A stretch of DNA of 64,000 bases from Arthrobacter hankyongi. Its GTDB lineage: Bacteria; Actinomycetota; Actinomycetes; Actinomycetales; Micrococcaceae. A program made the translations under genes and the position numbers. The stretch's first letter is position 1. Each line of letters opens with the position of its first letter. Of the stretch, positions 38,845 to 62,172 are shown one piece after another. The DNA lies in assembly GCF_022012395.1 (NCBI RefSeq), contig NZ_JAKLTQ010000002.1, positions 248,001 to 312,000 on the forward strand, given 5' to 3'. Below the pieces are notes generated by a model, which was not told the DNA's origin, ran no database searches, and saw nothing but the letters and a program-made list of their open reading frames with translations.

Positions 38845-39696
38845 TTAGCTTGCGAACGCCCCGCCGAGGGCGTCGCCGAAGACGTTGTCGCGTACCTCCA
38901 GCAGGAGCCGGCGGTGTTCTTCGGCCTCGAGGGTCAGGCGCTCGGTGGGGCCGAGTAGGCCGAGGCCCACCAACTGGTCGCCGACCGGGCCCGAGATGGC
39001 GATGCCGCTGACCCCCAGGCTGCCTTCGTTGACCGTCTGGTACCACCCCAGGGTGCGGTGTTTGTGCACCTCATCCTCGACCTGCCGGGGATCGACTTTG
39101 GTGGCATCCGTCCGGCGGGGCAGGGGGTGCAGGCGCAGGAGCCGCGCCAATTCGCCGTCATCCAGTGCCCCCAGCAGGGCTTTGCCCAATGCCGTGCCGT
39201 GGAGCGTAAAGCTGTCTCCGACCTCCAGGACGTAGCGCAGGCGGTGCTTGCCCGCGGTGACTGCGATGATCTTGATCCCGCTCCCATCCAGCACCGCAGC
39301 TGCTGCGGTCTCCCCGGAGCGGTCGGCCAGCAGTGCGGTCGCCTCGATCCCGAATGCGGTGAGCGCGTTGTTCTCCTCGGCCGCCTGCGCCATGCTCAGC
39401 AGCCGCCCGGTCGGATAGAAGCGCCGTGTGGTCGCCGTGCGGCTGAGGTAGCCCAATCCGTGCAGGGTGTTGAGCAGGTCCGAACTGCTGCTCTCGGGCA
39501 GATCCAGCAGCCGGGCCACCTCCGACTTGGTTAGTTCCCGCTTCTCCCGCGCAAAGATCTCAAACAGCGCCATCGTCCGCGCCGCCGCCGGCACGGTAGT
39601 TCCGCCGGTGGGCTTTCCGGAACTTCGCTGCGTTTTGGGCGCAGGTCTGGCTGGAGCTGCCTGTCCGGCGCTCTTGGGCATGGTCTTCACCGTCAT
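38845..39696 (-). CDS. IclR-family transcriptional regulator 1
   Basis: The protein has 283 residues from ATG 39696; the open frame reaches GTG 39729 and the true start could be either. A 33-residue low-complexity lead precedes a winged helix-turn-helix (34-101) with ELTKSEVARLLDLPESSSSDLLNTL. The C-terminal effector domain follows, with GTALGKALLGAL and GWYQTVNEGSLGVSGIAI. IclR proteins bind a small ligand and act on nearby operons. Residues 34-101 are identical to 31-98 of the regulator at 61348-62172, while the effector domains differ clearly. Confidence 0.92.
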   Translation of the reverse strand: MTVKTMPKSAGQAAPARPAPKTQRSSGKPTGGTTVPAAARTMALFEIFAREKRELTKSEVARLLDLPESSSSDLLNTLHGLGYLSRTATTRRFYPTGRLLSMAQAAEENNALTAFGIEATALLADRSGETAAAAVLDGSGIKIIAVTAGKHRLRYVLEVGDSFTLHGTALGKALLGALDDGELARLLRLHPLPRRTDATKVDPRQVEDEVHKHRTLGWYQTVNEGSLGVSGIAISGPVGDQLVGLGLLGPTERLTLEAEEHRRLLLEVRDNVFGDALGGAFAS

Positions 39697-39750
39697 TTCG
39701 CTAAATACTGATAGGTAACATTCTCCCACGAAAAATAGTATGGATAACGA

Positions 39751-39774
39751 TATGACGTAGTGATATCCGGCATA
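39751..39774 (-). promoter_or_regulatory. Operator-like half sites upstream of the IclR 1 gene
   Basis: The AT-rich gap 39697-39825 holds TATGACGTAG (39751-39760) followed four bases on by ATCCGGCATA, 12 of 18 positions of the palindrome consensus, and another strong half site CATATCGTAG (39771-39780). Several half sites before a regulator gene fit autoregulation. Confidence 0.35.
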
Positions 39775-39825
39775 TCGTAGTAATACGTTCGGTGTCGCCT
39801 TCCGGTGAAGACCGGCGTGGGGATG

Positions 39826-40047
39826 TCAGGATCGGCTGATGGCTTGGAATGCGCTGGGGGTGCGGAACATCGGGGCCTCGATCTCCGTGTCCGGCGCCAG
39901 CTGCCGGCTCAATGACGCGGTGGCTTGTTCGTCGACGGACCGGCGGCCGAATTCGCACTCGCAGGCGGGCATTCCGGCCCAGGTCACGGTGCGGCAGTGT
40001 TCGCAACTGGGCAGCACATCCGGCATGGACTGGCTGTCGATAGTCAT
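39826..40047 (-). CDS. Small cysteine-rich protein
   Basis: The protein has 73 residues from ATG 40047, with GGAGG six bases upstream; an in-frame ATG at 40059 is possible. Residues about 14-33 read SCEHCRTVTWAGMPACECEF, a CxxC plus CxC arrangement that could bind zinc or an iron-sulfur cluster. The rest has no recognisable domain. It starts about 25 bases after the acyl-CoA dehydrogenase stop on the same strand and is probably cotranscribed with it. The function is unknown. Confidence 0.55.
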   Translation of the reverse strand: MTIDSQSMPDVLPSCEHCRTVTWAGMPACECEFGRRSVDEQATASLSRQLAPDTEIEAPMFRTPSAFQAISRS

Positions 40048-40072
40048 GGTGGCCTCCATCCTGCCTCCCGCC

Positions 40073-41254
40073 CTACAGCGCGCGGGCGATCGACTGTTTC
40101 ATGGTTTCCGAAGTGCCGCCGTAGATCCGCAACACCCGGTTGGACGTATAGATGCGCGAAATCGGCATCTCATCACTGAAGCCCATGCCGCCAAAGAGCT
40201 GGATGCATCCATCCAGGACGCGGCCGGACATTTCGCAGACCCAGAGCTTGGTCATGGCGGCCTCGGTATCCGTGTTGGTCCCACTTCGGACCTTTCGGAC
40301 CATTTCGTGCAGGAAGGCCCGGCCGACTTCGATTTCCGTCTTCAGGGAGGCGAGCTGGAACTTGGTGTTTTGGAAGTCGAACAGGTTCTGGCCGAACAGG
40401 CGACGGTCCTTGGCGTACTGCAGGGTCATGTCGAAGGCCAGTTCCGCCTGGCCTAGGGCGCGGGCGCTGATCTGCAGCCGGTCGAAGGCCAGGGAGTGCA
40501 TCAACAGGCGCATCGCGCCGCCCAGGCCGCCCAGGACGTGGGATGCGGGCACACGGACATTGTCGAAATGCAATTCCGCGGTGTTGCCTGCGGGAAAGCC
40601 CATGGTCTTGAGCTTGCCCCGCGTCACGCCGGGGGCATTGGGGTCCACCAGGAACATGGTCATGCTCTTGCCGCGTGCGGCCGGATCGGTCTTGGCCACC
40701 ACGTATACGATGTCCGCGATATCACCGTTGGTGATGAAGGTTTTTTCGCCGGAGATGATGAAATCGTCCCCGTCAGGTGTGGCCGTGGTGCGCATTGCCA
40801 GCAGGTCGCTGCCCGCCTCGGGCTCGGTGGCCGCCATCGCCTGGATCGCCTCACCGGCCATGATCTTCGGCGCCCACTCCCTGATCAATTCCGGGGAACC
40901 GCCGTCGAGCAGGATGCCCGTGGCCAGGTCGGTGCAGAACAGGCTGCCGACCGTCCCGTAGCAGTGTGACCGGGCCATCTCCTGGGACAGGATCATATTG
41001 ACGATCGGGCTCATGCCCAGCCCGTCGTATGTCTCGGGAACAGTGGCACCGAGGATTCCGGCTTCACCGGCTTGCTTCCACACCTTGTGCCGGGACTCCG
41101 AGTCCGTGGCCAAGCCCTGGTAGATCGGCTCGATCTCACGGTCCAGGAACGTTCGGACGAGTTCGCGGAACTCGTCTTCCTCCTCGGTGAAGGGGCTGTG
41201 GTGCAGCAGCCCTTGGCTGATGCCCTCCCGGTCTACCGGTGTCTCAATGCTCAT
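40073..41254 (-). CDS. Acyl-CoA dehydrogenase
   Basis: The protein has 393 residues from ATG 41254, preceded by GAGGAG; the longer open frame adds 26 residues without domain content. It has the FAD strand AATEPEAGSDLLAM, DRRLFGQNLFDFQ and the C-terminal RIYGGTSETMK. The YGGT form means the base is not the C-terminal glutamate of MCAD. The alternative position carries D258 (SLAFDRLQI) where family members usually have glutamate. It sits downstream of the leucine-type operon but is separated from it by a hairpin. Confidence 0.88.
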   Translation of the reverse strand: MSIETPVDREGISQGLLHHSPFTEEEDEFRELVRTFLDREIEPIYQGLATDSESRHKVWKQAGEAGILGATVPETYDGLGMSPIVNMILSQEMARSHCYGTVGSLFCTDLATGILLDGGSPELIREWAPKIMAGEAIQAMAATEPEAGSDLLAMRTTATPDGDDFIISGEKTFITNGDIADIVYVVAKTDPAARGKSMTMFLVDPNAPGVTRGKLKTMGFPAGNTAELHFDNVRVPASHVLGGLGGAMRLLMHSLAFDRLQISARALGQAELAFDMTLQYAKDRRLFGQNLFDFQNTKFQLASLKTEIEVGRAFLHEMVRKVRSGTNTDTEAAMTKLWVCEMSGRVLDGCIQLFGGMGFSDEMPISRIYTSNRVLRIYGGTSETMKQSIARAL

Positions 41255-41365
41255 GTGCGTACTCCTCGAATTCGTTCGAGGCACTGGCTCCGCCTCGCTG
41301 CGGGCGTGCTCCCGGCCACCTCGGTACTTCATGCTTTTGTGCGAAATCTCGTTACAGGCTACGAC

Positions 41366-41403
41366 AGGGGTGCGGGGATGTCCATAGTCATCCCTGCGCC
41401 CCT
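41366..41403 (-). terminator. Hairpin terminator of the carboxylase operon
   Basis: Fifteen-bp arms (41366-41380 and 41389-41403), two of them G-U pairs, with an eight-base loop lie 26 bases after the stop of the citE-like gene. This separates the operon from the downstream acyl-CoA dehydrogenase gene. Confidence 0.6.
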
Positions 41404-41428
41404 GCTCCGGTTAATTGCCGGTCCACGC

Positions 41429-42265
41429 CTACAGCACAGCCGCCGAGCCTGCGCGGCGCATGATTGCTTCGGCCTGGCGGAACAGCGGGGCGTCCACCAT
41501 CCGTCCGTCCAGCTGCGAGGCACCGGCGTTTCCGGCCGCCGCCTCCAGGACACGTTTCGCCCAGGCAACCTGCTCCTCGGTCGGCGCATAGGCCGCCCTG
41601 ATGATGTCGACTTGGGACGGGTGGATGCAGGCAGTTGCAGCAAGGCCCAGGGCAGCGGCGTCGGCAGCCTCGGCGCGCAGGCCCTCGTGGTCGGCGATAT
41701 CCACATGGACGGCATCGACGGCGAACTTCCCGAAGGCGGCGGCCGCCAGTATGACCGATGAGCGCACATGCCGGGCGACATCGCGGTAACCCGCGTCGGC
41801 AAACCTGCTCGAGCTGCCGCCCATCGCGGCCACCAGATCCTCGGCGCCCCACATCAGCCCGACGCAATTGGCGGCCTGGGCAATCTCCGTGGCACGGACT
41901 GCGCCCAGCGGTGTCTCAACCAGTGCCAGGACGTTGAAGCCGACCGATTCGACTTGGGCTGCGCTCTCGGTCTTGGCCAGCATAACGGTGCTGCAGGCGG
42001 TGGCCGCCACGGCGTCCAGATCGGCGGCGTGGTCCGGGGCACCCGCGGGATTGATCCGGACAATGGCGCGTTCCGGGTCAAGTCCGGCTTTGGTCAGGTC
42101 CTTCCGCGCCTGTTCCCGGCGTTCGGGGGCACAGCCGTCCTCGAGATCCAGGATGGCCACGTCGGCCCGGGCCGCTGCCTTGGCGAACCGTTCCGGCCGG
42201 TCCGCGGGGCAGAACAGCAGGGCCGGCCCGGGCGGCAGCCAGGCCGCCTGCTGCGGCGCACTCAT
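41429..42265 (-). CDS. citE: CitE-like (HpcH/HpaI family) beta-hydroxyacyl-CoA lyase
   Basis: The protein has 278 residues from ATG 42265, overlapping the MaoC gene stop as ATGA. It has the CitE motifs LDLEDGCAP (39-47), [21 protein letters not shown] and CIHPSQV, including magnesium-binding acids in VET and AED. The gene order matches Mycobacterium tuberculosis Rv2498c-Rv2502c. There Rv2498c cleaves (S)-citramalyl-CoA and HMG-CoA-type substrates and links leucine breakdown with itaconate. By synteny this protein would split the hydrated product of the MaoC step. It is not part of a citrate lyase complex, since citD and citF are absent. Confidence 0.85.
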
Positions 42266-47661: not shown

Positions 47662-47722
47662 CCGCTTTCACATCCTTGGAATCAGGTCTGCCCCGGCAAC
47701 AAGATCCGGTCGATTTGAGTTG

Positions 47723-47748
47723 TTTCAGTTAGTGCTCATTAACTGAAA
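47723..47748 (-). promoter_or_regulatory. TetR-type palindromic operator before accD1
   Basis: TTTCAGTTA (47723-47731) and TAACTGAAA (47740-47748) are perfect 9-bp arms around an eight-base centre. Inside lies GTTAGTG-CT-CATTAAC, a second, nearly perfect dyad typical of TetR sites in actinobacterial beta-oxidation operons. It is 62 bases before accD1. No TetR gene is present in the window. Confidence 0.55.
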
Positions 47749-47810: not shown

Positions 47811-48830
47811 TCAGGCCGGGCTGTAGCAGGTGACGCCGTCGACCTCGGACGCGGACACCTGTCCCAGCGTGGCCAGCACGGACAGGTGGGCCGCAGTCTC
47901 CGCAATCGCGAGCATCTGATTGAACGGATCCAGCTCCGAGAGGTGCTTTTTTCGCCGTGTCCAGTCAAGTTGGGCGGCGATCTCGGTGGCGGTGCCGGCG
48001 CCGTGGAGCACCGGCCGCAGCGTCTGGTCCAGCCGTTCGCCATGATGGTCCAGCAGTTCCTTCGCGCGGCGGTGCGCGCTGTCCCAGACATCCCCGTGGG
48101 CCGGCAGCAGCACCGCATCTGTCCGGGAGAGTATCAGTTGAAGCGAGTCCATATAGTTGGCCAGCGGGTCGGGGGAGAGGACCTGTTCGAAGCCGATCGA
48201 CGGTGTGATCGAGGGAAGGATATGGTCGCCGGAGAAGAGCAGGGCCGCGTCGATGTCGTGGAACACGACGTGCCCCTGCGTGTGTCCCGGAGTGGCCAGG
48301 ACTTCGAGGGCCCGGCTGCCCAAGGAAACGGTCTCGGCGTGATTCAGCCACTGGCAGGGCATCTCCCACTCTTCCTTGGCATCCCGGCCGGCGAATTCGG
48401 CCAGGCGCGCTGCCAGTTCCGGGGCACCATGGGCGTAGAGGCTGCGGATCTGGCTGTCCAAGGGCTTGCGGTCCGGTTTTACCAGATGTTCGAGGGACGG
48501 TTTTTCGTGCACCCCGAGGGCAATCTGGGTGCCGTACTCGCGCCGGATCTGGATGGCCTGGGTGTAGTGGTCCCGGTGGACATGGGTGACGAGGAACGTG
48601 CGGATGTCTGCGACGGAGAATCCCAGCGAATCCAAGGCCTCCTCGAGCGCAGTGCGGGCTTCCGGGATGTCCCATCCGGAATCGATCAGGACCAGGCCGT
48701 CCGGTTCGATGACCGCGTAGACGTTGATGGCCTTGAGGCTGTCATGGGGGAGCGGCAGCGGGATCCGGTACACCCCTTCGGAGACCTGGTAGCAGCCGGA
48801 CTCGTGCCAGGCGCCCGTAGCAGCCGCCAT
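47811..48830 (-). CDS. MBL-fold metallo-hydrolase
   Basis: The protein has 339 residues with the metal motif THVHRDHYT (H83, H85, D87, H88), a later ATPGHTQGHVVFHD carrying the third-ligand His, and FSGDHILPSI. The fold is that of glyoxalase II and beta-lactamase-like hydrolases, and the C-terminal 100 residues form a helical domain as in LACTB2-like and thioesterase-like members. A thioester or lactone substrate is plausible. Its start is coupled (TAATG) to a 21-codon reading frame. Confidence 0.87.
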   Translation of the reverse strand: MAAATGAWHESGCYQVSEGVYRIPLPLPHDSLKAINVYAVIEPDGLVLIDSGWDIPEARTALEEALDSLGFSVADIRTFLVTHVHRDHYTQAIQIRREYGTQIALGVHEKPSLEHLVKPDRKPLDSQIRSLYAHGAPELAARLAEFAGRDAKEEWEMPCQWLNHAETVSLGSRALEVLATPGHTQGHVVFHDIDAALLFSGDHILPSITPSIGFEQVLSPDPLANYMDSLQLILSRTDAVLLPAHGDVWDSAHRRAKELLDHHGERLDQTLRPVLHGAGTATEIAAQLDWTRRKKHLSELDPFNQMLAIAETAAHLSVLATLGQVSASEVDGVTCYSPA

Positions 48831-48947: not shown

Positions 48948-48998
48948 TGTCTCCGCTGTTGTCCCCGGCAGGAGATGCAGCAGGGGAAGCTATTCCGA

Positions 48999-49022
48999 AA
49001 TATCGTTGATTGTGATGATATA
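48999..49022 (+). promoter_or_regulatory. Weak IclR-type palindrome before the SDR gene
   Basis: AATATCGTTG (48999-49008), ATTG and TGATGATATA (49013-49022) match 11 of 18 fixed positions of the consensus. The surrounding region (48995-49050) is AT-rich, as expected for a promoter. It is 142 bases before GTG 49164. Confidence 0.25.
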
Positions 49023-49163
49023 CCGATACAGGGATTCCGTGATAGTGGTTTTCGCGAATCGCGGCAGCGGGCGGCGAAGCGGGACTGGAAGGTCGCGGTG
49101 TCGCCGCGGATTACAGCCCAGTCCGGCGCGGAAGCGCCGGGCTGATGAGGAAGGGTACTGGGC

Positions 49164-49970
49164 GTGAATGCCATGAATGCATTGGATACGGCTCTGGGGC
49201 ATACCGGCGGCGGGACCCTTGAGGGTACGGTCGCGCTGGTGACCGGAGCCAGCAGCGGAATCGGCCGGGCGACGGCGCAGGCGCTGAGTGCGCAGGGGGC
49301 CACGGTGGCGCTCGTCGCCCGCCGGGCCGACCGGCTCAAGGAGTTGGCCGATGAAATCCTCGACGCCGGCGGCCGTGCCGTCGTTGTGGTCGCTGATGTT
49401 GCCGACGAAGACCGGGCCCGGGAGGCGGTGGAGGAGGTCGTCCGGCAGTGCGGGCGCCTCGATACCGTGGTTAACAACGCCGGCGTCATGCTGCTGGGCC
49501 CGGTGCGCGGAGCCCCGCGCGAGGAGTGGCGGCGGATGGTTGACATCAATGTCCGCGGCCTGCTGGCGGTGACCCATGCCTCCGTTGAGTACCTGGTTGA
49601 GGCCGCCCGCTCCGGCCCGCGGCAAGTGGCGGATCTGGTCAATGTCAGCTCGATTGCCGGCCGTACGGCCCGCGTGGGAACCGCCGTGTACAACCTGACG
49701 AAGTGGGGGGTCGGCGCCTTCAGCGAGGCCCTGCGCCAGGAACTGGCGCCGGAATTCGTCCGGGTATCGGTCATCGAGCCAGGGGCAACGACGACGGAAT
49801 TGATCACTCATGTGCGCCCGGAGGTCCGGGAGCAGTCTGCGTCGCGAACGGCCGGCGTCGAACGGCTGCAGGCAGCCCATATCGCCAGTTCGATTTCCTA
49901 CATGGTGTGTCAGCCGCGCGGTGTCGCCGTCAATGAGATCATGATCCGCCCCACGAACCAGGTGTATTGA
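49164..49970 (+). CDS. Short-chain dehydrogenase/reductase
   Basis: The protein has 268 residues from GTG 49164, with GAGGAAGGG upstream; an ATG follows three codons later. It has the classical TGASSGIG cofactor loop (27-34), NNAG (104-107), S163 and YNLTK (Y176, K180). It may act on a hydroxyl group in the aromatic or alicyclic branch. The gene is alone before an operator-bearing gap. Confidence 0.9.
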   Translation: MNAMNALDTALGHTGGGTLEGTVALVTGASSGIGRATAQALSAQGATVALVARRADRLKELADEILDAGGRAVVVVADVADEDRAREAVEEVVRQCGRLDTVVNNAGVMLLGPVRGAPREEWRRMVDINVRGLLAVTHASVEYLVEAARSGPRQVADLVNVSSIAGRTARVGTAVYNLTKWGVGAFSEALRQELAPEFVRVSVIEPGATTTELITHVRPEVREQSASRTAGVERLQAAHIASSISYMVCQPRGVAVNEIMIRPTNQVY

Positions 49971-50128
49971 GCACACGCGTGTTGCCGGCTTTCCTCCTCG
50001 CAGGCATTTTTCGCCATATTTTCCCGAGCAGAAGGAAAATGGTGGCCGCAGTGTAGGCTGCCTCACAGTGCGCGCGGGAATCCTCCGTCAACGAAATGGC
50101 GGAGAAAACCACGGGGTATTGCGGACTC

Positions 50129-50158
50129 CTACGATATATCGTAGACTCATGCGAAATA
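50129..50158 (+). promoter_or_regulatory. IclR-type palindromic operator before the acyl-CoA ligase gene
   Basis: TATATCGTAG (50135-50144), ACTC, ATGCGAAATA (50149-50158) match the consensus in 15 of 18 fixed positions with the same four-base spacer. The left half also forms a perfect 16-bp palindrome CTACGATATATCGTAG (50129-50144). It lies 28-57 bases before ATG 50186. Confidence 0.55.
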
Positions 50159-50185
50159 TCAGCGATGATTTGAGTAGGGGTCTGA

Positions 50186-52321: not shown

Positions 52322-53100
52322 TCAAGACCGAAATCGGCCAGACCACCACTGACCGCATCACGGTTCGCGGCTACGATCTGGCAACCGAGCTGATCGGCCG
52401 GATTGATTTCATCGACATGCTCATGCTGGTCACCGTCGGTCGGAAATGCCAGGGCAATGAGAAGGACATGCTCAACACCATCCTGGTCACGGTCACCGAC
52501 CACGGCCTGACCCCGAGCGCCCTGGCCGCACGCCTGACCTACATGGGCGCGCCGGAGGCGCCGCAGGCGGCCGTTGCTGCCGGCCTGCTTGGCGCTGGGA
52601 GCGTCTTCCTGGGGGCCATGCAGGACGCGGCCATCATGCTCAAGGACGCCGCCGGGGACCTCACGGACAGCTCCAGTGACGAGGAAATCGAGAAGGCGGC
52701 CAGGGCGTTCGTCTCCGGACGCCGTGCCAGCCGCCAGCCCTTGTACGGGCTCGGACACAATATCCACATCGACGGGGATCCGCGGATCCCGGCCCTGAAA
52801 GCGGTCACCGAGCGCAACGGCTACTACGGCCTGTACTGGAAGCTGCTGCTGGCGATGGACGATGTCTCCGGCAGCATCTACTCCCGCCGCCTGCCGGCCA
52901 ATACCGCCGGCGCCGTCGGAGCCATGATCCTGAGCATGGACCTGCCGGTCCATCTGGCCCGGGGTCTGGCCCTGGTCGGCCGCTGTGCCGGGCTGCTTGG
53001 CCACATCATCGAGGAAGAGGAATCACCCACCGGCCAGGAGCTCTGGGACCTGGTCCTGCGTCAGGACGAGCGCAACAAACTGCCGGAGCCGAAGCGATGA
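52318..53100 (+). CDS. Citryl-CoA lyase-like protein (citrate-synthase fold)
   Basis: The protein has 260 residues, far shorter than citrate synthase but usual for citryl-CoA lyase-like proteins. The citrate-synthase active-site segments are present: TDHGLTPS (H62), GLGHNIHIDGDPR (H147) and GLLGHIIEEEE (H229). These enzymes cleave a 3-hydroxyacyl-CoA such as citryl-CoA into an acyl-CoA and a ketoacid. The GTG start overlaps the ligase stop as GTGA. Ligase plus lyase would mimic a two-protein citrate lyase; the actual substrate may be a related hydroxy tricarboxylate from the aromatic pathway. Confidence 0.8.
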   Translation: MIKTEIGQTTTDRITVRGYDLATELIGRIDFIDMLMLVTVGRKCQGNEKDMLNTILVTVTDHGLTPSALAARLTYMGAPEAPQAAVAAGLLGAGSVFLGAMQDAAIMLKDAAGDLTDSSSDEEIEKAARAFVSGRRASRQPLYGLGHNIHIDGDPRIPALKAVTERNGYYGLYWKLLLAMDDVSGSIYSRRLPANTAGAVGAMILSMDLPVHLARGLALVGRCAGLLGHIIEEEESPTGQELWDLVLRQDERNKLPEPKR

Positions 53101-53139
53101 ACGCGGAAAACACCTTGCTGCACCCCCCGAGGAGGACCA

Positions 53140-54489
53140 ATGCTACGTGCTGATGCCAACGAGACCATTTCGCGGATCGGCCGCGGGACGCCCATGGGAG
53201 AGCTGTTCCGCCGGTTCTGGCTTCCCGCCGTCCTGAGCCGCGAGGTCGAGGAGCCGGACTGCCCGCCGATCCGGCTGCGGATCCTGGGTGAAGACCTGGT
53301 CGCCTTCCGCGATACCCGCGGACGGGTCGGCATCGTCGCCGCTCATTGCTCGCACCGGCTGGCACCGTTGTTCTTCGGCCGCAACGAGGATTGCGGCATC
53401 CGCTGCGCCTACCACGGCTGGAAGTTCGACGTCGACGGCAACTGCCTGGAAACCCCGAACGTGCCCTCCACGGCCCCGGATATCCGCAGGAATGTCGGCA
53501 TTACCGCCTACCCGACAACGGAAAGCGGCGGCGTGGTCTGGATATACATGGGCCCCAAGGAGTTCCAGCCCGGCTTCCCGGCCCTGGAATTTGCCCATGT
53601 TCCCGACGGACACGCCTTTGCCGCCCGCTGGCTGCAGCGCACCAACTGGTCCCAGGGTCTGGAAGGCGAAATCGACAGCTCCCACATCAGCTGGCTGCAC
53701 CGCGACTTCGACAAGAACACCACCAAGCAGAAGTCCACCGGCGCCCAGATGACCGACGACGCAGCGCCGCACATCGAGTTGCGCCAGACCGACTACGGGC
53801 TGGTCTACGGCGCCCGCCGCTCCCACGAGGGCCAGTACCTGTGGCGGGTGACCCAGTTCATCCTGCCGATGTTCAGCCTCATCCCGCGCGGGCCGGGCGA
53901 GTTCGTCCAGGGCGGCGGCCGCGCCTGGGTGCCGATCGACGACAACACCACCACCGTCTTCACTTTCGGCTACCGGGTCGACCACCCCATCGGGGAAGAC
54001 GAGCTCAACGAGTACTACCTCAGCGGCGCGCTCTTTCCGCCCCGGATGGAACAGGGCCGGTACGAACTGCCCGACGGCGGCATCATCGATACCTGGCTGC
54101 CGGTGGCCTCGAAGGAGAACGATTACCTGGTGGACCGCGAGATGCAGCGGAACACCAACTTCACCGGCATCTGGGGCGTGCATGACCAGGACCGCGCGCT
54201 GGCGGAAAACTCCAAGAGCATCGGCGGCACCGATCCGGGCATCGTCGACCGCTCCGGGGAGCATTTGGTCAGCTCCGACCGGGCCGTAGTGGCTGCACGC
54301 CGGCAGCTGATCAACCTGGCCGACGCTATGGCCAAGGGTAACGAGCCGGCCGTAGTGCAGTCGCCGGAGAAGTTCGGGGTCCGCGCCATCAGCAAGCTGA
54401 CTCCGATCGAGAGCTTCGACGAGTTCATGGAGACCTACGGCAACGACCTGCTCGCTGGCAACCTTCAGCCGGCCCTCGTGGACGAGTGA
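53140..54489 (+). CDS. Rieske aromatic-ring-hydroxylating oxygenase, large subunit
   Basis: The protein has 449 residues; AGGAGGA precedes the ATG. Rieske ligands are C70, H72, C89 and H92 (HCSHR, CAYHGWKF). The catalytic iron site is EGEIDSSHISWLH with D179, H182 and H187. It belongs to the phthalate-dioxygenase-type homo-oligomeric group. With the dehydrogenase (54500) and reductase (55674) it forms a complete oxygenase module like the pht genes. The spacing and cysteine pattern match those of the 2542-3858 protein, so the two are paralogs. Confidence 0.92.
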   Translation: MLRADANETISRIGRGTPMGELFRRFWLPAVLSREVEEPDCPPIRLRILGEDLVAFRDTRGRVGIVAAHCSHRLAPLFFGRNEDCGIRCAYHGWKFDVDGNCLETPNVPSTAPDIRRNVGITAYPTTESGGVVWIYMGPKEFQPGFPALEFAHVPDGHAFAARWLQRTNWSQGLEGEIDSSHISWLHRDFDKNTTKQKSTGAQMTDDAAPHIELRQTDYGLVYGARRSHEGQYLWRVTQFILPMFSLIPRGPGEFVQGGGRAWVPIDDNTTTVFTFGYRVDHPIGEDELNEYYLSGALFPPRMEQGRYELPDGGIIDTWLPVASKENDYLVDREMQRNTNFTGIWGVHDQDRALAENSKSIGGTDPGIVDRSGEHLVSSDRAVVAARRQLINLADAMAKGNEPAVVQSPEKFGVRAISKLTPIESFDEFMETYGNDLLAGNLQPALVDE

Positions 54490-54499
54490 GAACCCGGTC

Positions 54500-55681
54500 A
54501 TGCGAAATTCCACGGTAGGCCTGGGGGTAGTCGGGCTGGGAATGGCCGGCGGTGCCATGGTCGCGGCCGTCGGCACCCATCCCGGCGTCCGGCTGGTGGC
54601 GGCCGCCGACCCGAACCAGGCGCTGCGCGCCCGGTTCGAGGCAGGGGAGGGGCTGCCGGCGTACGCGGATCTGGATACGTTGCTGGCTGACCCCGCCGTC
54701 GACGCCGTCTACCTCGCCTCGCCCCACCAGTTCCACCACCAGCAGGCGCTCGCCGCGGCGAGGGCAGGCAAGCACATCGTCGTCGAAAAGCCGATGGCCT
54801 TGGCGTTGGATGAATGCGACCAAATGATCGAGGCGGCCGACCGGGCCGGCGTGGCCCTGGTGGTGGGCCATACCCACGGGTTCGACCCGGCCGTGATGCT
54901 GATCCGCGAGCTGGTGGCCTCGGGCGCCTACGGCACGTTGTCGATGATCGCGCAGTGGAACTACACCAACTTCCTCTACCGTCCGCGCCGGCCCGAGGAA
55001 CTGGACACGGCGCGGGGCGGGGGAATCCTGTACAACCAGATCCCCCATCAGGTCGAGATCGCCAGGACCATCGCGGCCCGCCCGGTTCGTTCGGTCCGCG
55101 CCACTACGGCGGTGCTGGACCCGCAGCGGCCCACCGAAGGGTCCTGCACGGCCATCCTTGAGTTCGAGGACAATGTGTCGGCCAGCATGGTCTACAGCGG
55201 CTACGACCACTACGACACCGACGAACTGCACGGCTGGATCGCCGAAGGCGGCGGTCCCAAAAACCCCTCCCACGGCAGCGCCCGGCGTGCCCTGCGCCAG
55301 CAGGAGGGGGAAGCCGAGCGCCAGGCCCGGACCGAGAACTTCGGCTACGGGAACTGGTCGGCGGAACTGCCGCCGCACCAGCCGCATTTCGGCGAACTCA
55401 TCGTCTCCTGCGCCAAGGCAGACATCCGGTGCGGAGCCGACGACGTCGTCGTCTACACCGAGGCGGGTGTGGAACGGGTGCCCATACCGGCCCGGCCGTG
55501 GCGGCCCGGGCGCGGGGACGTGCTCGAGGAACTGGCCGGTTACCTGACCGACAGCCGGCCCTTGGTCCATGACGGACACTTCGGCCGGGAGACGCTGCGC
55601 GTCTGCCTGGCCATCAAACAGTCGGCGGCAGAGCACCGCGGGCTGGAGCTTATTGAAAGGGAGGCGGACAGCTATGTCTGA
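54500..55681 (+). CDS. Gfo/Idh/MocA-family dehydrogenase (dihydrodihydroxyphthalate dehydrogenase-like)
   Basis: The protein has 393 residues. The nucleotide loop is GVVGLGMAGGAM (9-20), with EKPMAL near residue 97 and HTHGFDPAV near residue 128. Length and the insertion DTDELHGWIAEGGGPK followed by an Arg/Glu-rich helix are like phthalate dihydrodiol dehydrogenase (Pht4) proteins, longer than LigC. It should rearomatise the cis-diol made by the adjacent oxygenase. The LigC-type semialdehyde oxidation cannot be ruled out. Confidence 0.85.
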   Translation: MRNSTVGLGVVGLGMAGGAMVAAVGTHPGVRLVAAADPNQALRARFEAGEGLPAYADLDTLLADPAVDAVYLASPHQFHHQQALAAARAGKHIVVEKPMALALDECDQMIEAADRAGVALVVGHTHGFDPAVMLIRELVASGAYGTLSMIAQWNYTNFLYRPRRPEELDTARGGGILYNQIPHQVEIARTIAARPVRSVRATTAVLDPQRPTEGSCTAILEFEDNVSASMVYSGYDHYDTDELHGWIAEGGGPKNPSHGSARRALRQQEGEAERQARTENFGYGNWSAELPPHQPHFGELIVSCAKADIRCGADDVVVYTEAGVERVPIPARPWRPGRGDVLEELAGYLTDSRPLVHDGHFGRETLRVCLAIKQSAAEHRGLELIEREADSYV

Positions 55682-56642
55682 AGGATTCGAAACCATGACG
55701 CTTCGCGTCCACGCGATGCAGTGGGAGGCCGAGACCGTCCTGTCGGTGGACCTGCGCGACCCCAACTCGGCCGAGCTGCCGGAATTCACCGCCGGCGCCC
55801 ACATCGACCTGGTACTGCCCAACGGGATCACGCGCAGCTACTCCCTCTCCAATGACCAACGCGAACGGCACCGCTACGTCGTGGGGGTGAGCCGGGACGC
55901 CAAGAGCCGCGGTGGCTCCACGTACATCCACGACAGCCTGCGGGTCGGGCAGCTGCTCCCGGTCTCCGCCCCGCTGAATAACTTCCCGTTGGCCGAGGAC
56001 GCCGAACAGACCATCCTGTTCGCCGGCGGCATCGGGATCACCCCGATGCTGAGCATGGTCCGGAGGCTGGAAACGCTCGGCCGGAACTGGACCCTGTACT
56101 ACTGCGTCCGGGAGCGGTCCCTGACGGCCTTCGGTGATGAACTCGCCACGCTGGCGGCCAGCCACCCCGAGCGGCTGCAATTGCACGTCGATGCCGAACA
56201 CGACGGCGCCGTGCTGGACCTGGCCGCCGTCGTTGACGCGGCCCCGGAGGGCACGCACATGTATTGCTGCGGACCGCTGCCGATGCTGGAAGGATTCGAG
56301 AAGGCCGCGGTCGAACTCCCCTCGGCACAGCGGCATGTGGAGTACTTCGCCGCCAAGGATGCCCCCGCGCTGGAGGGCGGCTTCGAAGTCGAACTCGCCC
56401 AGTCCGGCAGGACCCTGACCATCGAACCCGGCCGCACCATTCTCGACACGATGCAGGAAGCCGGCATCGACGTCTCCTACTCCTGCGGCGAAGGGATCTG
56501 CGGCACCTGCGAAACACGGGTGCTGGCCGGGACCCCGGACCACCGCGACCTGGTCCTGACCGATCAGGAAAAGGAAGCGAACGACATCATCATGATCTGC
56601 TGCTCGGGCAGCAAGGGCCCGAAGCTCGTTCTGGATCGCTGA
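55674..56642 (+). CDS. Phthalate dioxygenase reductase-type flavoprotein with ferredoxin domain
   Basis: The protein has 322 residues from ATG 55674, which overlaps the previous stop by eight bases and has GGGAGG upstream. It has an FMN domain (RSYSLSN, 54-60), an NAD domain (AGGIGITPM, 117-125; CCGPLPM, 198-204) and a C-terminal plant-type [2Fe-2S] domain with C271, C276, C279 and C309. This is the PDR/VanB order. It passes electrons from NADH to the Rieske protein at 53140 and may serve the one at 2542. Confidence 0.93.
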   Translation: MSEGFETMTLRVHAMQWEAETVLSVDLRDPNSAELPEFTAGAHIDLVLPNGITRSYSLSNDQRERHRYVVGVSRDAKSRGGSTYIHDSLRVGQLLPVSAPLNNFPLAEDAEQTILFAGGIGITPMLSMVRRLETLGRNWTLYYCVRERSLTAFGDELATLAASHPERLQLHVDAEHDGAVLDLAAVVDAAPEGTHMYCCGPLPMLEGFEKAAVELPSAQRHVEYFAAKDAPALEGGFEVELAQSGRTLTIEPGRTILDTMQEAGIDVSYSCGEGICGTCETRVLAGTPDHRDLVLTDQEKEANDIIMICCSGSKGPKLVLDR

Positions 56643-56708
56643 CAGCACATCACAGGCACCACACTACTGACGGCCGCTGCCGGCGGCCGCCGGACTGAGG
56701 AGGAAACA

Positions 56709-57716
56709 ATGGCACAGATCGTATTGGGAATTGGAACATCGCACAGCCCGCTGCTGGCTATCGAGCCCGGGCTGTGGGCCGAACGCGCACAGGACGACCT
56801 CCGCAAGAAGGAGCTCTACCTTGCCGACGGCCGGGTGGTGACCTACGACGAACTCAACCAGGAAGTCCAGGGCCGCTACGCGGACAAGGCCGTGCCGGGG
56901 AACTTCGAGAAGCAGGCGCTGCAGGCCCAGCAGGCGCTGGACCGGCTCGCGGCGACGATTGCGGAGGCAGACCTGGACGCCCTGGTGGTCATCGGTGACG
57001 ACCAGGAGGAGCTCTTCACCAAGGCACACATGCCGGCCATGGCCATCTACAACGGCGCCGAGGTGGTCACCCACCCGAAGAACGAGGTCAACCCGAACCT
57101 GCCCGGCTGGTACCAGGAGGCCAACAAGGGCTACAAGATGGACGCAGTCCACCGTCACCCGGCCGCCCCGGAACTGGCTTCCGCGCTGATCGACGGGCTG
57201 ATCGAGGCCGGCGTCGACATCGCCGTCGCCAGCGAGGTCACTAACCCGCACAGCGCGGGGTTCGGCCACGCCTATGGCTTTGTGATCGACCGGCTGTGCG
57301 GCGAGCGGGAGATCCCCATCCTGCCGGTGATGCTCAACACCTACTTCCCGCCCAACGTTCCGCGCCCCAGCCGCTGCTACGACATCGGCCAGGCCATTGC
57401 CAAGACGCTGAACGCCCTGCCCGGCAGCGAGCGGATCGGCATTGTCGCCTCCGGCGGCCTGACCCATTTCGCCGTCGACGAGGAGCTCGACACGACCGTG
57501 ATCAGCGCCCTGGCCGCTGGCGACGTCGACAAGCTGCGTTCGTTGCCGCCGCTGGGTCTGCGGTCGGGCAATTCCGAGATCCTGAACTGGATCATGGCCG
57601 CCGGCGCCCTGACGGACCTGACGGTCACGGAGTCCGAGTACATCCCCGTGCACCGCACTCCTGCCGGCACCGGTATCGGCCTCGCTTTCCTGACCTGGCA
57701 ATCGGCCCAGGCCTGA
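56709..57716 (+). CDS. LigB-type (class III) extradiol dioxygenase
   Basis: The protein has 335 residues. An iron-ligand His is in GTSHSPL (H12), and further conserved histidines are NPHSAGFGHAYGF (H181, H187) and SGGLTHF (H253). It is a single-chain member without a LigA subunit, closest in length and motifs to gallate and 3-O-methylgallate dioxygenase types. It cleaves a catechol-type ring meta to a hydroxyl using Fe(II). Downstream enzymes fit 4-oxalomesaconate as product. Confidence 0.87.
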   Translation: MAQIVLGIGTSHSPLLAIEPGLWAERAQDDLRKKELYLADGRVVTYDELNQEVQGRYADKAVPGNFEKQALQAQQALDRLAATIAEADLDALVVIGDDQEELFTKAHMPAMAIYNGAEVVTHPKNEVNPNLPGWYQEANKGYKMDAVHRHPAAPELASALIDGLIEAGVDIAVASEVTNPHSAGFGHAYGFVIDRLCGEREIPILPVMLNTYFPPNVPRPSRCYDIGQAIAKTLNALPGSERIGIVASGGLTHFAVDEELDTTVISALAAGDVDKLRSLPPLGLRSGNSEILNWIMAAGALTDLTVTESEYIPVHRTPAGTGIGLAFLTWQSAQA

Positions 57717-57752
57717 CCGGGCACCCGACTACGACTTCCTAGGACTTCACCG

Positions 57753-58832
57753 ATGATTATTGATGCCCACGGCCATCTCATAACCCCCGCCTCGGTCTTC
57801 GGGATCCGCACGGTCCTGCAGGCCTCCAACGGCCACCACTCCAAGGATTGGTACATCGACAGGTACGTCGACGATGACGAACTCGCCGCCGCTGCCAAGC
57901 GCGGCGTCACCCTGATGGACCAGGTCGGCACCGACGTCCAGTTCCTCTCGCCCCGGCCGTTCGTGCTCTGGCACTCGCACCCGGTGGCCAAGGACGTGGA
58001 CCTGTGGATCGGGCTGCAGAACGACCTGATCCACCGTGCCGTCACGGCCCACCCGGACCGTTACCGCGGCGTCGCCGGCCTGCCCCAGGTCTCCGGCGAG
58101 CCCATCGAACGGGTCTTCGGCGAACTGGAGCGCGCCGTCGGCGAGCTTGGCTTCATCGGGGTACTGCTGAACCCGGATCCGGACGAGGGCGGGGGCAAGT
58201 CCCCGCGGCTGTCGGACCCGTACTGGTATCCGCTCTGGGCCAAACTGGTGGAATTGGGTATCCCGGCCCATATCCACAGCGCCGGCTGCACCGGCCGGGA
58301 AACCTACGACGAGCATTTCGCCACCGAGGAAAGCCTGGCCGTGACCTCGCTGGTTCATTCGGAGGTCTTCGACAAGTTCCCGGACCTGAACGTCATGATC
58401 AGCCACGGCGGCGGCGCCATCCCCTACCAGATCGGCCGCTGGCGGGCCCATTGGTGGCTGGACCTGGCCACCAAGAAGAAGCACATCGGCCAATACTTCC
58501 GCGATCTGGAGCACGCCGGCAGGAACGGAGAGCCGCTGCCCGAGGCGCCGTCGGACCTGACCAGCTTCGATGATGCGCTGCGGATGCTGTGGTTCGACAC
58601 GGACGTGCACGATGCCAATGCACTGGAACTGCTGTTCCGCACCGTGGGCGCGGACCGCTGCCTGTTCGGCACAGAACGGCCGGGCAGCGGCGGCGCGATC
58701 AACCCCAAGACCGGGAGGTCCTTTGAGGACTTCAAGTACACCATTGACCGCATCGACTTCCTGACCGACCAGGACCGCGGGCTGATCTACGAGCACAACG
58801 TGCGCAAGGTGTTCCCGAGGCTGGACGTATGA
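57753..58832 (+). CDS. Amidohydrolase-fold hydratase, probable 4-oxalomesaconate hydratase (LigJ-like)
   Basis: The protein has 359 residues with the metal motif DAHGH (H6, H8), HIHSAG (H173, H175) and SHGGGAIPYQIGRW (H218), followed by LFGTERPGSGGA. This is the ACMSD/LigJ branch of the amidohydrolase fold. With a LigB-type dioxygenase before it and a LigK-type aldolase after it, hydration of 4-oxalomesaconate is the best guess. Decarboxylation, as in ACMSD, is the alternative. The stop overlaps the next start as ATGA. Confidence 0.82.
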   Translation: MIIDAHGHLITPASVFGIRTVLQASNGHHSKDWYIDRYVDDDELAAAAKRGVTLMDQVGTDVQFLSPRPFVLWHSHPVAKDVDLWIGLQNDLIHRAVTAHPDRYRGVAGLPQVSGEPIERVFGELERAVGELGFIGVLLNPDPDEGGGKSPRLSDPYWYPLWAKLVELGIPAHIHSAGCTGRETYDEHFATEESLAVTSLVHSEVFDKFPDLNVMISHGGGAIPYQIGRWRAHWWLDLATKKKHIGQYFRDLEHAGRNGEPLPEAPSDLTSFDDALRMLWFDTDVHDANALELLFRTVGADRCLFGTERPGSGGAINPKTGRSFEDFKYTIDRIDFLTDQDRGLIYEHNVRKVFPRLDV

Positions 58833-59482
58833 GCATGGACAAGCTGCTGGCCTCCGGGCAGGACTTAGTGGAGGCAGCCGGCGTGCTGCCGACCGCTACG
58901 CTGCACGAAGCCGGCGGCAAGATCGGTGCGCTGCCGGCGGCGATCAAGCCGGTCCGGCCCGGCATGCGGCTTGCCGGCACGGCCCTGCCGGTGCTATGCC
59001 CACCGGGCGACAACCTCTGGCTGCACCGTGCCGTCTACGAAGCCGATCCCGGCGAGGTCCTCGTCGTCGACGTCGGAGAGGCCATGGAACACGGGCACTG
59101 GGGCGAAGTCCTGGCCGTGGCCGCGCAGAAGCGCGGCATCGCCGGCCTGGTCATCAACGGCGGGGTGCGCGACGGCGACCAGTTGCTGCAGCGCGGCTTT
59201 CCCGTCTTCTCTGCCTCGATATCCATCCGCGGCACGGCCAAGGACCCGTATGGTGCGGGAGCGATCGGCGAACCGGTCCGCATCGGCGGCGTGGAAATCC
59301 GCCGGGGCGATCTGGTGGTCGGTGATGCCGACGGCGTCGTTGTTGTGCCCGCGGACCAGGCGGCCGCGGTCATCGAGAAGTCAGTGCAGCGCGAGGCGGA
59401 CGAACAGGACATCCTCGCCCGGCTGGCAGCCGGCGAGTGCAGCCTCGATATCTACTCCCTGCCGAAGAGGCGGGACCGGTGA
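58829..59482 (+). CDS. RraA-fold aldolase, probable 4-carboxy-4-hydroxy-2-oxoadipate aldolase (LigK/GalC-like)
   Basis: The protein has 217 residues. It has the RraA-fold active-site segments WGEVLAVAA and GLVINGGVRDGD, with R114 and D115 matching the metal-assisting pair in the aldolase of Pseudomonas. It would cleave the hydrated acid to pyruvate and oxaloacetate. The ATGA overlap with LigJ and the GTGA overlap with the RidA gene show tight coupling. Confidence 0.83.
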   Translation: MSMDKLLASGQDLVEAAGVLPTATLHEAGGKIGALPAAIKPVRPGMRLAGTALPVLCPPGDNLWLHRAVYEADPGEVLVVDVGEAMEHGHWGEVLAVAAQKRGIAGLVINGGVRDGDQLLQRGFPVFSASISIRGTAKDPYGAGAIGEPVRIGGVEIRRGDLVVGDADGVVVVPADQAAAVIEKSVQREADEQDILARLAAGECSLDIYSLPKRRDR

Positions 59483-59871
59483 AACGCCGCAGCGTGACCG
59501 TGCCGGGGCTGGAGCACGGCAGCAACCCGGTGCCGGCAGCCAGCCGCCTCGGACCGCTGCTGGCCACCGGCGGGGTGCGCGGGGTGGACACCGCCACCGG
59601 CCAGCTCCCTCCGGCAGCCGAGGACCAGGTCCGGCTCGCCTTCGTGAACCTGCGCACCATCATCGAGGAAGGCGGCGGAAGGGCCGAGGACATTGTTCAC
59701 GTCACTGTCTTCGCCGCGGCGGAGGGTCTGAGACCGGTACTGAACGAGGAATGGGTTGCCATGTTTCCCGACGTAGCGTCCCGTCCGGCCAGGCACCTGC
59801 TGCGCCAGGACCTGCCCGGCGGAATGCTGGTCCAGCTCGAAGCAATGGCTTACATCACGGAAGGGGAGTGA
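59479..59871 (+). CDS. RidA-family (YjgF/YER057c) protein
   Basis: The protein has 130 residues from GTG 59479, overlapping the stop of the aldolase gene. It shows the RidA trimer pattern: LATGGVRGVD, DQVRLAFVNLRTIIEEGG, DIVHVTVF and the C-terminal QLEAMAYI. The usual catalytic arginine appears in ARHLLRQDL. RidA proteins hydrolyse reactive enamines or imines, and relatives help tautomerise keto acids. A role in tautomerising the ring-cleavage product is possible, as no GalD-like isomerase is seen. Confidence 0.85.
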   Translation: MKRRSVTVPGLEHGSNPVPAASRLGPLLATGGVRGVDTATGQLPPAAEDQVRLAFVNLRTIIEEGGGRAEDIVHVTVFAAAEGLRPVLNEEWVAMFPDVASRPARHLLRQDLPGGMLVQLEAMAYITEGE

Positions 59872-59875
59872 TCCG

Positions 59876-60538
59876 ATGACGGATCGGCTTATCGAACGTC
59901 TGCGCCGGCTGGATGCCTGCGCGGTCTCCGACGCCATGGACCGGCTGGGGCTGGAAGGCGTGGCCCTGGGGCTGCAGCCGTTAACGGCGGACCGGCGGAT
60001 CAGCGGACGGGCGACCACGGTCCGGCTCGTTCCGGCGGAGGAAGGCGTGCCGAGCGCGCGCCATTTGGGGACCGCGGCGGTGGAGGCCTCCGGGCCGGAC
60101 AACGTCATCGTCGTCGACCAGGGAGGTCGCACCAATGTGTCGGGCTGGGGAGGGATCCTGTCCCTGGCAGCCGTCCAGCGCTGCGTCCAGGGCGTCATTG
60201 TGGACGGCGCCTGCCGCGATGTCGATGAAAGCCGGGAGCTTGGCCTGCCGATCTTCGCCCGGAATGCTGTTCCGCTCACCGCCCGTGGGCGCGTGGTGGA
60301 ACAGGACTGGAACGTTCCGGTCCAGCTGTGCGGCATCGAGGTGGCGCCGGACAGCTACGTCATTGCCGATGGCAGCGGCGTAGTGTTCCTACCGGCCGCA
60401 CACGCCGAGGAGATTATCGCCGCCGCGGAGGCCATCTGGGAACGGGAGCAGGCTATGGCAGCACAGGTAAAGAATGGCGTGCCTGTATCCGAAGTGATGG
60501 GTGCACGTTACGAGACGATGCTGAAGGAGCACGCATGA
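59876..60538 (+). CDS. RraA-family protein, second copy
   Basis: The protein has 220 residues and starts four bases after the RidA stop. The active-site segment is GWGGILSLAA and VIVDGACRDVDE with R114 and D115. It is shorter in the N-terminus than the 58829 protein and not closely similar. It may be an aldolase or oxaloacetate decarboxylase for another oxo acid. The stop overlaps the next start as ATGA. Confidence 0.8.
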   Translation: MTDRLIERLRRLDACAVSDAMDRLGLEGVALGLQPLTADRRISGRATTVRLVPAEEGVPSARHLGTAAVEASGPDNVIVVDQGGRTNVSGWGGILSLAAVQRCVQGVIVDGACRDVDESRELGLPIFARNAVPLTARGRVVEQDWNVPVQLCGIEVAPDSYVIADGSGVVFLPAAHAEEIIAAAEAIWEREQAMAAQVKNGVPVSEVMGARYETMLKEHA

Positions 60539-61200
60539 GCACCACACCGGAGACTGCAGCAATCGAGCAGGTCCTGACGGAATTGAGCTGCACCGATGTC
60601 AGCGATGCATTGGACCGGCTCGGCATCAACGGGCAGTGCCTTGGCATTATGCCGCTGGACCGCTCCTTCCGGATTGTGGGGCAGGCCTGGACGCTGCGCT
60701 ATGGACCGGTGGGGGAGGATCCCGGCACTGTCGGAGACTACATCGACGAGCTTGGCCCGTCCCAGGTGGTGGTGCTCGACAACCAGGGCCGTTTGGACGC
60801 GACCGTGTGGGGCGACCTGCTGACCTCGACTGCGTCCCGCAACGCCGTGGCAGGCACGGTCATTGACGGGGTCTGCCGCGACGTCGATCGGGCCCTGAGC
60901 ATGCAGTACCCGATCTATTCGCGCGGCAATTGGATGCGCACCGGCAAGGACCGCGTCCGCGTGGAGGCAGTCGGGGCACCGGTTTCCATCGGCGGCGTCC
61001 GGATAGAACCGGGGGACTGGCTGCTGGGCGACGGCGACGGTATCGTCAACATCCCGGTGGCACGGATCCACGAAGTCCTTGCCGCCGCACAGGAGATCCG
61101 TGACGCCGAAGAGCACATCAGGCAGGCGGTCGAGGCAGGGAAGTCGCTGCGCCAGGCCCGGGCCGATTACGGCTACCACACGCTCCAGACGGCCCGTTAG
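60535..61200 (+). CDS. RraA-family protein, third copy
   Basis: The protein has 221 residues from ATG 60535 (AAGGAG upstream); the open frame continues further upstream but only shadows the previous gene. It has VWGDLLTSTA and TVIDGVCRDVDRA with R115 and D116. It pairs with the preceding RraA by overlap, so the two may form a hetero-oligomer. Substrate unknown. A 14-bp hairpin follows. Confidence 0.8.
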   Translation: MSTTPETAAIEQVLTELSCTDVSDALDRLGINGQCLGIMPLDRSFRIVGQAWTLRYGPVGEDPGTVGDYIDELGPSQVVVLDNQGRLDATVWGDLLTSTASRNAVAGTVIDGVCRDVDRALSMQYPIYSRGNWMRTGKDRVRVEAVGAPVSIGGVRIEPGDWLLGDGDGIVNIPVARIHEVLAAAQEIRDAEEHIRQAVEAGKSLRQARADYGYHTLQTAR

Positions 61201-61207
61201 CTCGGCC

Positions 61208-61251
61208 GCCGAGGCTGCCGGGCAGGGGATTCTGTGTCCGGCAGCCTCGGC
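61208..61251 (+). terminator. Hairpin terminator of the aromatic operon
   Basis: Perfect 14-bp arms GCCGAGGCTGCCGG (61208-61221) and CCGGCAGCCTCGGC (61238-61251) with a 16-base loop lie eight bases beyond the last RraA stop. Confidence 0.65.
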
Positions 61252-61347
61252 ATAGCGCAGTTTGACCCGACTCTTCGGTTCTGCCGGAAGCAACATGGAT
61301 GTATGGTGCTGATGACTAGTTGGTAATGAGAACTGAAACGATGGTGG

Positions 61348-62172
61348 ATGACTATGGCACGCGTAGCTGAAGCTGCGAGTACGGGTGCGCCGGCGCGCAG
61401 GAGCCAGAAGACGGGCGGTGCGGCGTCCTCGGGACCTACCGTGCCTGCTGCCGCCCGGACCATGGCGCTGTTTGAGATTTTCGCGCGAGAAAAGCGGGAA
61501 CTGACAAAATCCGAAGTGGCCCGGCTGCTGGATCTACCCGAGAGCAGCAGCTCCGACCTGCTGAACACCCTCCACGGCCTCGGATACCTGAGCCGGACCG
61601 CTACGACCCGCCGTTTCTATCCGACTGGCCGGTTGCTCAGCACCGCCAGATCCATTGCCGAGAATGACGTCCTGACACCGTTCGGGGTTGAGGCGACCGG
61701 TTTGCTGGCTGACCGGACCGGGGAGACCGCAGCGTTCGCCATCCGGGACGGAAACGCTATCCGGATCGTTGCCGTGACCGAGGGGAACTACCGGCTGCGT
61801 ATTGTCATCGAAATCGGCGACACCTTCGATTTGCATGCTTCAGCCCTCGGCAAAGCGATCCTGGGCCAGCTCGATGATGAGGACATGGCCCGTACCCTGC
61901 GGCTCAAGCCGCTGTCCCGGCTGGCCGAGGGAACCAAAGTGGATCCCCGGCAGATCGAGGACGAAGTGCGCCAGCACCGCGAGCTGGGTTGGTACCAGAC
62001 CATCAACGAAGGCGGAGCTGGCATGGGCAGCCTGGCCGTTTCGGGCAAGGTTGGAGACGAAGCTGTGGCGCTATGCATTGTTGGTCCCACGGAGCGGGTC
62101 GCCGAGAACCTCGATGAGTACCGCAAACTGATCCTGGACGTTCGCAGCACGGTCTTCGAGAACGCACAATAG
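61348..62172 (+). CDS. IclR-family transcriptional regulator 2
   Basis: The protein has 274 residues. The winged helix-turn-helix (31-98) is identical in sequence to residues 34-101 of the 38845 regulator, although the DNA differs at many third positions, so the conservation is at protein level. The effector domain differs: HASALGKAILGQLDDEDMA and GWYQTINEGGAGMGSLAV. The two regulators should therefore recognise the same operators and answer to different ligands. It follows the aromatic operon and is read as a separate unit. Confidence 0.92.
   Translation: MTMARVAEAASTGAPARRSQKTGGAASSGPTVPAAARTMALFEIFAREKRELTKSEVARLLDLPESSSSDLLNTLHGLGYLSRTATTRRFYPTGRLLSTARSIAENDVLTPFGVEATGLLADRTGETAAFAIRDGNAIRIVAVTEGNYRLRIVIEIGDTFDLHASALGKAILGQLDDEDMARTLRLKPLSRLAEGTKVDPRQIEDEVRQHRELGWYQTINEGGAGMGSLAVSGKVGDEAVALCIVGPTERVAENLDEYRKLILDVRSTVFENAQ

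Follow-up and report, generated by a model that had tools for sequence, protein, structure and literature searches.

Two apparently old IclR sisters with identical DNA-binding blocks and a candidate shared tandem operator in a catabolic island of Arthrobacter hankyongi

Introduction

What holds two long-separated regulators identical in the part that reads DNA, while the rest of each protein has drifted? The question is raised by a 64,000-nucleotide stretch of the Arthrobacter hankyongi genome (assembly GCF_022012395.1, contig NZ_JAKLTQ010000002.1, positions 248,001 to 312,000 of the forward strand; hereafter the window), which encodes two IclR-family regulators, here called A and B. A first-pass annotation of the window, made from its sequence alone, had noticed that their winged-helix regions agree residue for residue and proposed that they serve one set of operators with two different inducers. 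The reading that we favour, with rather better than even confidence, is that A and B are old IclR sisters that bind the same tandem operator at about 11 places in a catabolic island and likely respond to different ligands, so that the island would answer two signals.

Identical heads, saturated synonymous sites

The two regulators, and the DNA of the block that they share, are located in the window as follows.

38845..39696, minus strand: regulator A, IclR family, 283 residues from the ATG at 39696, with HTH_IclR and IclR_C domains
61348..62172, plus strand: regulator B, IclR family, 274 residues, with HTH_IclR and IclR_C domains above the Pfam cut-offs
39394..39597, minus strand: DNA of the identical block in A, 68/68 residues and 34/68 codons identical to B
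61438..61641, plus strand: DNA of the identical block in B, the same 68-residue winged-helix block as in A

Both are ordinary two-domain IclR proteins with unbroken reading frames. The winged helix (PF09339) scores 38.6 bits in A and 40.5 bits in B against a Pfam cut-off of 22, and the effector domain (PF01614, IclR_C) scores 69.1 and 78.9 bits against a cut-off of 24; the open frame of A extends upstream of its ATG, to a GTG at 39729. Numbered from that ATG, residues 34-101 of A are residues 31-98 of B, so that the 68-residue identity first annotated is confirmed at 68 of 68 positions, over DNA that is different in 34 of the 68 codons and at 33 of their 68 third positions. The accompanying statement that the remainder had diverged a lot is true of the lead before the block, in which 9 of 30 residues agree, and less so of the part after it, where 74 substitutions still leave 102 of 176 residues identical (58%) and homology is kept. 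Three positions of the glyoxylate pocket of AllR and IclR differ between A and B; they were placed through an alignment of B with AllR and transferred to A through the A-B alignment.

No close relative of the pair was found, besides their own genome, among 10 genomes of the genus or 395 sampled genomes of the family (E ≤ 1e-30) or among 396 sampled genomes of the phylum (1e-35), and comparisons of A with B are therefore confined to saturated synonymous sites. At residues that the two proteins share (methionine and tryptophan excluded), the codon is the same at 33 of 67 positions within the block (0.49) and at 52 of 101 beyond it (0.51); saturation, calculated from the codon usage of the window, predicts 0.49 and 0.50. 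The comparison of synonymous with nonsynonymous rates that the first-pass annotation had proposed gives, by the Nei-Gojobori method (NG86), synonymous distances (dS) that are alike, 1.18 in the block and 1.22 after it, and nonsynonymous distances (dN) of 0.007 versus 0.319. With synonymous sites as saturated inside the block as after it, the block is not a product of recent copying; recent gene conversion is rejected on the same figures, which bears out the earlier claim and supports an old duplication. As far as saturated sites tell, the copies appear to be old, and equally old in both parts, with only the block held. A and B are sisters in a tree of effector domains (support 94/96, a little short of the 95/80 that the tool requires for a star), a position that identifies them as paralogues by duplication.

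How unusual is such a head? Searching the 5.19-Mb genome with the block at E ≤ 1 returned 12 matches, and none of the ten besides A and B exceeds 40% identity. As a control we assembled 46 loci of ordinary IclR proteins, of which two (L074 and L011) failed a homology filter and one (L051) was removed because it duplicated L003; the 43 proteins kept give 861 of 903 pairs with enough aligned columns, and lean mostly on one orthologous group (that of L003) rather than forming a broad sample. In this control the identity of the block tracks that of the effector domain, and 0 of 861 pairs reach 97% in the block, a result that together with the genome search excludes chance as the source of the identity. 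General conservation of IclR heads is rejected by the same control: the 23 pairs with an effector identity of 0.55-0.62 have a block identity of only 0.48-0.79, and equal conservation of the block in unrelated IclR proteins, which the first-pass annotation had named as telling against it, is not what is seen. Within the subfamily to which A and B belong, the ratio of block distance to effector distance is 0.27-0.82 with a median of 0.47 (54 other pairs, 11 proteins), so that 9 block differences would be expected between A and B at the lowest ratio and 15 at the median. None is observed, for which P is 5e-5 at the lowest ratio (a rough Poisson figure, the pairs being non-independent). A head with zero differences across about 11 operators looks unusual.

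A candidate tandem operator

The element that both heads would read consists of two TACGAWATWTCGTA-like 14-bp palindromes, 20 bp apart, which occur in the window and in the upstream regions of relatives (with a spacing of 21 bp rather than 20 in Paraburkholderia). The palindromes at 9704, 38689 and 50135 that had been singled out in the first annotation are real and belong to a larger window set of nine sites, seven strong and two weak, centred 25-181 bp upstream of assumed open-frame start codons. Fractions are consensus positions matched.

2466..2509: candidate operator upstream of the Rieske oxygenase gene 2542-3858; 19/24; a weak model match (E 0.25) despite training
9694..9737: candidate operator upstream of the gene 9811-11112 for a solute-binding protein of a tripartite ATP-independent periplasmic (TRAP) transporter; 20/24
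31243..31286: candidate operator upstream of the leftward phosphotransferase-like gene 29616-31118; 18/24
33735..33778: weak candidate operator just upstream of the cytochrome P450 gene 33783-35036; 15/24; first palindrome good, second poor; a model match by construction
38679..38722: candidate operator upstream of the leftward short-chain dehydrogenase/reductase gene 37778-38569; 19/24
39741..39784: candidate operator with its centre 67 bp ahead of the start of A; 20/24
41335..41378: weak candidate operator upstream of the leftward acyl-CoA dehydrogenase gene 40073-41332, which may in fact start further in; 16/24; second palindrome poor
48989..49032: candidate operator between the divergent genes 47811-48830 (minus) and 49164-49970 (plus); 17/24
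50125..50168: candidate operator upstream of the gene run 50186-61200, after which B lies; 20/24

At 17 or more of 24 consensus positions, the window has 9 placements at 7 places and 20 Markov sequences have 0; at 16 or more there are 12 placements against a shuffle mean of 0.2, and at 15 or more 22 against 2.35. The spacing of 20 nt between centres lies within the range of 18-22 nt for tandem IclR operators, an arrangement predicted for 94 IclR orthologous groups and fitting tetramer binding (PMC8222616). Judged by eye, the 14-bp palindrome fits neither main IclR consensus given in the main text of that paper; the HmgR site ATTACGTTATTCGTAAT has the same TACG...CGTA arms (PMC8222616).

A sequence-only model, built from the nine window sites aligned gap-free, was applied to the whole 5.19-Mb genome; a loose first pass gave 93 candidates, all of which were scored. 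At E ≤ 10 there are 17 rows, corresponding to 11 distinct places, all within C12:230834-298165 (67 kb; C12 is the contig that carries the window). Nine of the 11 are training sites, matched by construction, and two are new, 17 and 9 kb to the left of the window. The first of these is upstream of a leftward gene that precedes an electron-transfer-flavoprotein alpha (ETF-alpha) gene. The second stands ahead of an aldehyde dehydrogenase gene, inside its open frame (L049:9041-10855) and before the Pfam match starts, and since the frame runs through the site (L049:9041-9300), the start of this gene is unsettled. Applied to 58 further genomes from the genus, family and order, with stricter filters at which weak matches are lost, the model gave nothing at E ≤ 0.01; across 16 loci that encode ordinary IclR proteins it gave nothing at E ≤ 10. 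At the thresholds used, then, the operator type is confined to the island. What stands of the dual-input regulon over about 50 kb that had been put forward is one operator type restricted to the island; its extent looks larger, with 11 places, two of which are weak, spread across 67 kb.

Because a candidate operator is centred 67 bp upstream of its start, A is probably autoregulated. B follows the run 50186-61200 and may be partly co-transcribed with it. A promoter and terminator scan of 61180-61380, ahead of B, found nothing. A perfect 14-bp inverted repeat (61208-61221/61238-61251), seen by eye, lies between the last RraA-like gene and B; it lacks a T run and is not called as a terminator by the scan. 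Ahead of the Rieske oxygenase gene, 2451-2504 holds three palindromes in 20-bp steps rather than two, the extra repeat being at 2451.

Relatives and a second pair

The IclR subfamily of the pair is rare in the sampled collections. A genome-collection scan, whose reach is close relatives only, found Sphingomonas tagetis (L013) and Granulicoccus phenolivorans (L014). The plasmid collection had 14 matching records, the best 7 of which were taken: Variovorax, Cupriavidus sp. KK10, Diaphorobacter, Comamonas, Roseomonas, Paraburkholderia and Cupriavidus oxalaticus. Searches around two distant relatives matched only their own genomes among 398, 245 and 249 sampled genomes (1e-38); the larger searches for relatives scored the first 6 or 10 candidates per genome. 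That A and B are unmatched in the other sampled genus, family and phylum genomes suggests a horizontal origin of the island.

All nine relatives share with A and B the recognition-helix core SS.SDL..T, which differs from that of the ordinary IclR heads of this genome (those read on the right strand). The relatives' sites had been seen before the window sites were chosen, so testing the model on them is not fully blind, the model itself holding window sequence only; it finds sites at E < 0.1 in six of the nine loci (L013, L014, L026, L027, L028 and L030). A comparison of neighbourhoods, covering the plasmid records other than that of Variovorax, places acyl-CoA ligase, citryl-CoA lyase or acyl-CoA dehydrogenase genes next to the regulators of Diaphorobacter, Roseomonas, C. 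oxalaticus and KK10, and a citryl-CoA lyase match about 4 kb from that of Paraburkholderia; the Comamonas regulator has other fatty-acid-type genes around it.

A second pair is found on the Cupriavidus sp. KK10 plasmid NZ_CP073678.1, where two subfamily members 8.7 kb apart (L026:268-1014 and 9022-9762) flank acyl-CoA ligase, citryl-CoA lyase, acyl-CoA dehydrogenase and CoA-transferase genes; the ligase shares 52% identity with the product of window gene 50186-52321, and the lyase 54% with that of 52318-53100. Its members agree at 58 of 68 block residues and 98 of 175 effector-domain residues, and at shared residues their codons are equally unlike in both parts (30/56 identical in the block, 52/96 in the effector part). 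Upstream of the first regulator there are paired sites at L026:160 and 212 (model E 0.93 and 0.095), and upstream of the second a perfect single palindrome with a poor partner at L026:8973 (by consensus scan only). Since each member is closest to the other, by identity rather than by tree, this duplication looks independent. The paired-regulator layout thus probably arose separately in KK10, with a head that is constrained and not frozen; judged by these comparisons, A and B are the extreme case and the KK10 pair a similar but less strict one.

The surrounding island

The window together with C12:230001-248000 is a large catabolic island for organic compounds, with two LigXa-type Rieske oxygenases, P450s, several type III CoA-transferases, TRAP transporter genes, a methylcrotonyl-type carboxylase and ring-cleavage genes. 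A lies among acyl-CoA dehydrogenase, carboxylase and HpcH genes. The run 50186-61200 contains acyl-CoA ligase, citryl-CoA lyase and ring-cleavage genes, and B itself follows LigB-like, amidohydrolase and RraA/CHA-aldolase-like genes. Two RraA-like genes stand in this one run (58829-59482 and 59876-60538), and the former passes the NCBIfam cut-off for 4-carboxy-4-hydroxy-2-oxoadipate (CHA) aldolase. Another IclR gene, at C12:313372-314043 and 1.4 kb to the right of the window, is 34% identical to the L003 protein and absent from the 12 genome matches of the block.

Discussion

On the reading that we prefer, A and B very probably share one set of operators, each made of two palindromes that are two helical turns apart and that both proteins would bind. 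As the reading heads are identical, the DNA would be unable to distinguish A from B, and all operators would therefore receive the same A/B mixture, set only by the amounts of the two proteins and by which one carries ligand. Purifying selection on the 68-residue block would keep A and B in register with every operator, leaving the linker and effector domain free to change. The positions of the candidate sites make repression the likely mode, and the one regulator of which A and B are copies was probably a repressor; the family includes activators too (PMC8222616). From the 74 substitutions after the block and the differing gene neighbourhoods we infer that the inducers differ, and A and B would most likely be released by different intermediates, giving an island that answers two chemical signals.

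Several points weigh against this. The nine window sites include two weak ones, of which that with 15/24 is not above shuffle level; an operator of its own, sought directly upstream of B, was not found (best 13/24). Three of the nine relatives lack a clear operator (L031 at E 0.67; L025 and L029 with none at E ≤ 10). With 58% identity kept between the effector domains, a single ligand or a related pair of them would be possible, and binding, repression and regulatory logic at the candidate operators are predicted from sequence. Finally, 46 of 68 block positions vary among the seven relatives with operator-like sites (L025 included, by consensus scan only), and operator sharing alone therefore fails to explain zero differences.

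The alternative that survives best, though we think it unlikely, is that the pair is a redundant duplicate: the same operators and the same or nearly the same ligand, with a difference in expression or affinity that would serve as dosage back-up or a two-threshold switch. The likeness of the effector domains favours it, as does the fact that only A has an operator directly upstream, on account of which the two may differ in expression; substitutions at 74 of 176 residues after the block argue the other way, as do the three differing positions of the glyoxylate pocket.

For the frozen heads themselves, a tighter hold by about 11 operators, head-head pairing or an old conversion could each be the reason. 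The last would mean that one block was overwritten long after the duplication and has been held since, while its synonymous sites saturated anew. We regard this as doubtful. It would account for 0 block differences where subfamily rates predict 9-15, and for the 10 that the Cupriavidus pair shows at a like effector divergence; on the other hand, block and later part are equally saturated in codon identity and dS alike, and as the conversion must predate that saturation, constraint still does much of the work. To pairing we give the same tentative weight. Here the heads would be locked by mutual winged-helix pairing in mixed A/B dimers or tetramers on four-box operators, such that altering one head would disrupt its partner. 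If this were true, control of the island would rest with a hybrid IclR complex responsive to two ligands, a natural logic gate, and the lack of any difference over 68 residues would reflect the pairing and not operator reading alone.

That one of the regulators is ligand-blind, a decoy that occupies operators, is improbable: the sequence would allow it, but each effector domain comfortably exceeds the cut-off for IclR_C and each reading frame is intact. That any IclR protein would show its strongest conservation in this block, with nothing more behind the identity, is hardly credible: heads are indeed more conserved than effector domains in 54 of 54 other subfamily pairs, and yet none of 861 ordinary pairs, in a control leaning on one orthologous group, reaches 97%.

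Paralogous regulators with overlapping targets are already documented, as TtgV/TtgT, BenM/CatM and ArsR1/ArsR2. TtgV and TtgT of Pseudomonas putida are IclR paralogues with cross-regulation, as Teran et al. reportedly described in 2007; they govern efflux-pump operons, unlike the catabolic island here. BenM of Acinetobacter baylyi answers benzoate and muconate, and CatM muconate only, with overlapping targets (PMC6628147). A and B would resemble them as paralogues whose targets overlap within one aromatic pathway, a BenM/CatM feature, and differ in that the LysR heads of BenM and CatM are nine residues apart and the A/B block none (PMC6628147). They differ further in family, A and B being IclR proteins with a candidate tandem operator at 11 places. 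ArsR1 and ArsR2 of P. putida are paralogous repressors able to down-regulate each other's promoters; unlike A and B, they belong to the ArsR family, have non-identical binding sequences and both serve arsenic tolerance (PMC7994332). The usual reach of an IclR protein is its own gene plus one or two neighbouring operons (PMC8222616). Among top-ranked titles and abstract openings, with subscription literature mostly outside that scope, none describes paralogous IclR pairs with identical heads. What seems new is the frozen head at saturated synonymous distance, the tandem operator that by eye departs from both main IclR consensuses of PMC8222616, and the island-wide set of 11 places.

A and B apparently illustrate, cleanly and in nature, how a regulator can acquire a second input, with the reader fixed and the sensors free. 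Together with the Cupriavidus pair, the operators make testable the idea that regulons gain inputs by duplication of a sensor with a frozen reader, and such natural pairs could serve as parts for two-input biosensors on one promoter.

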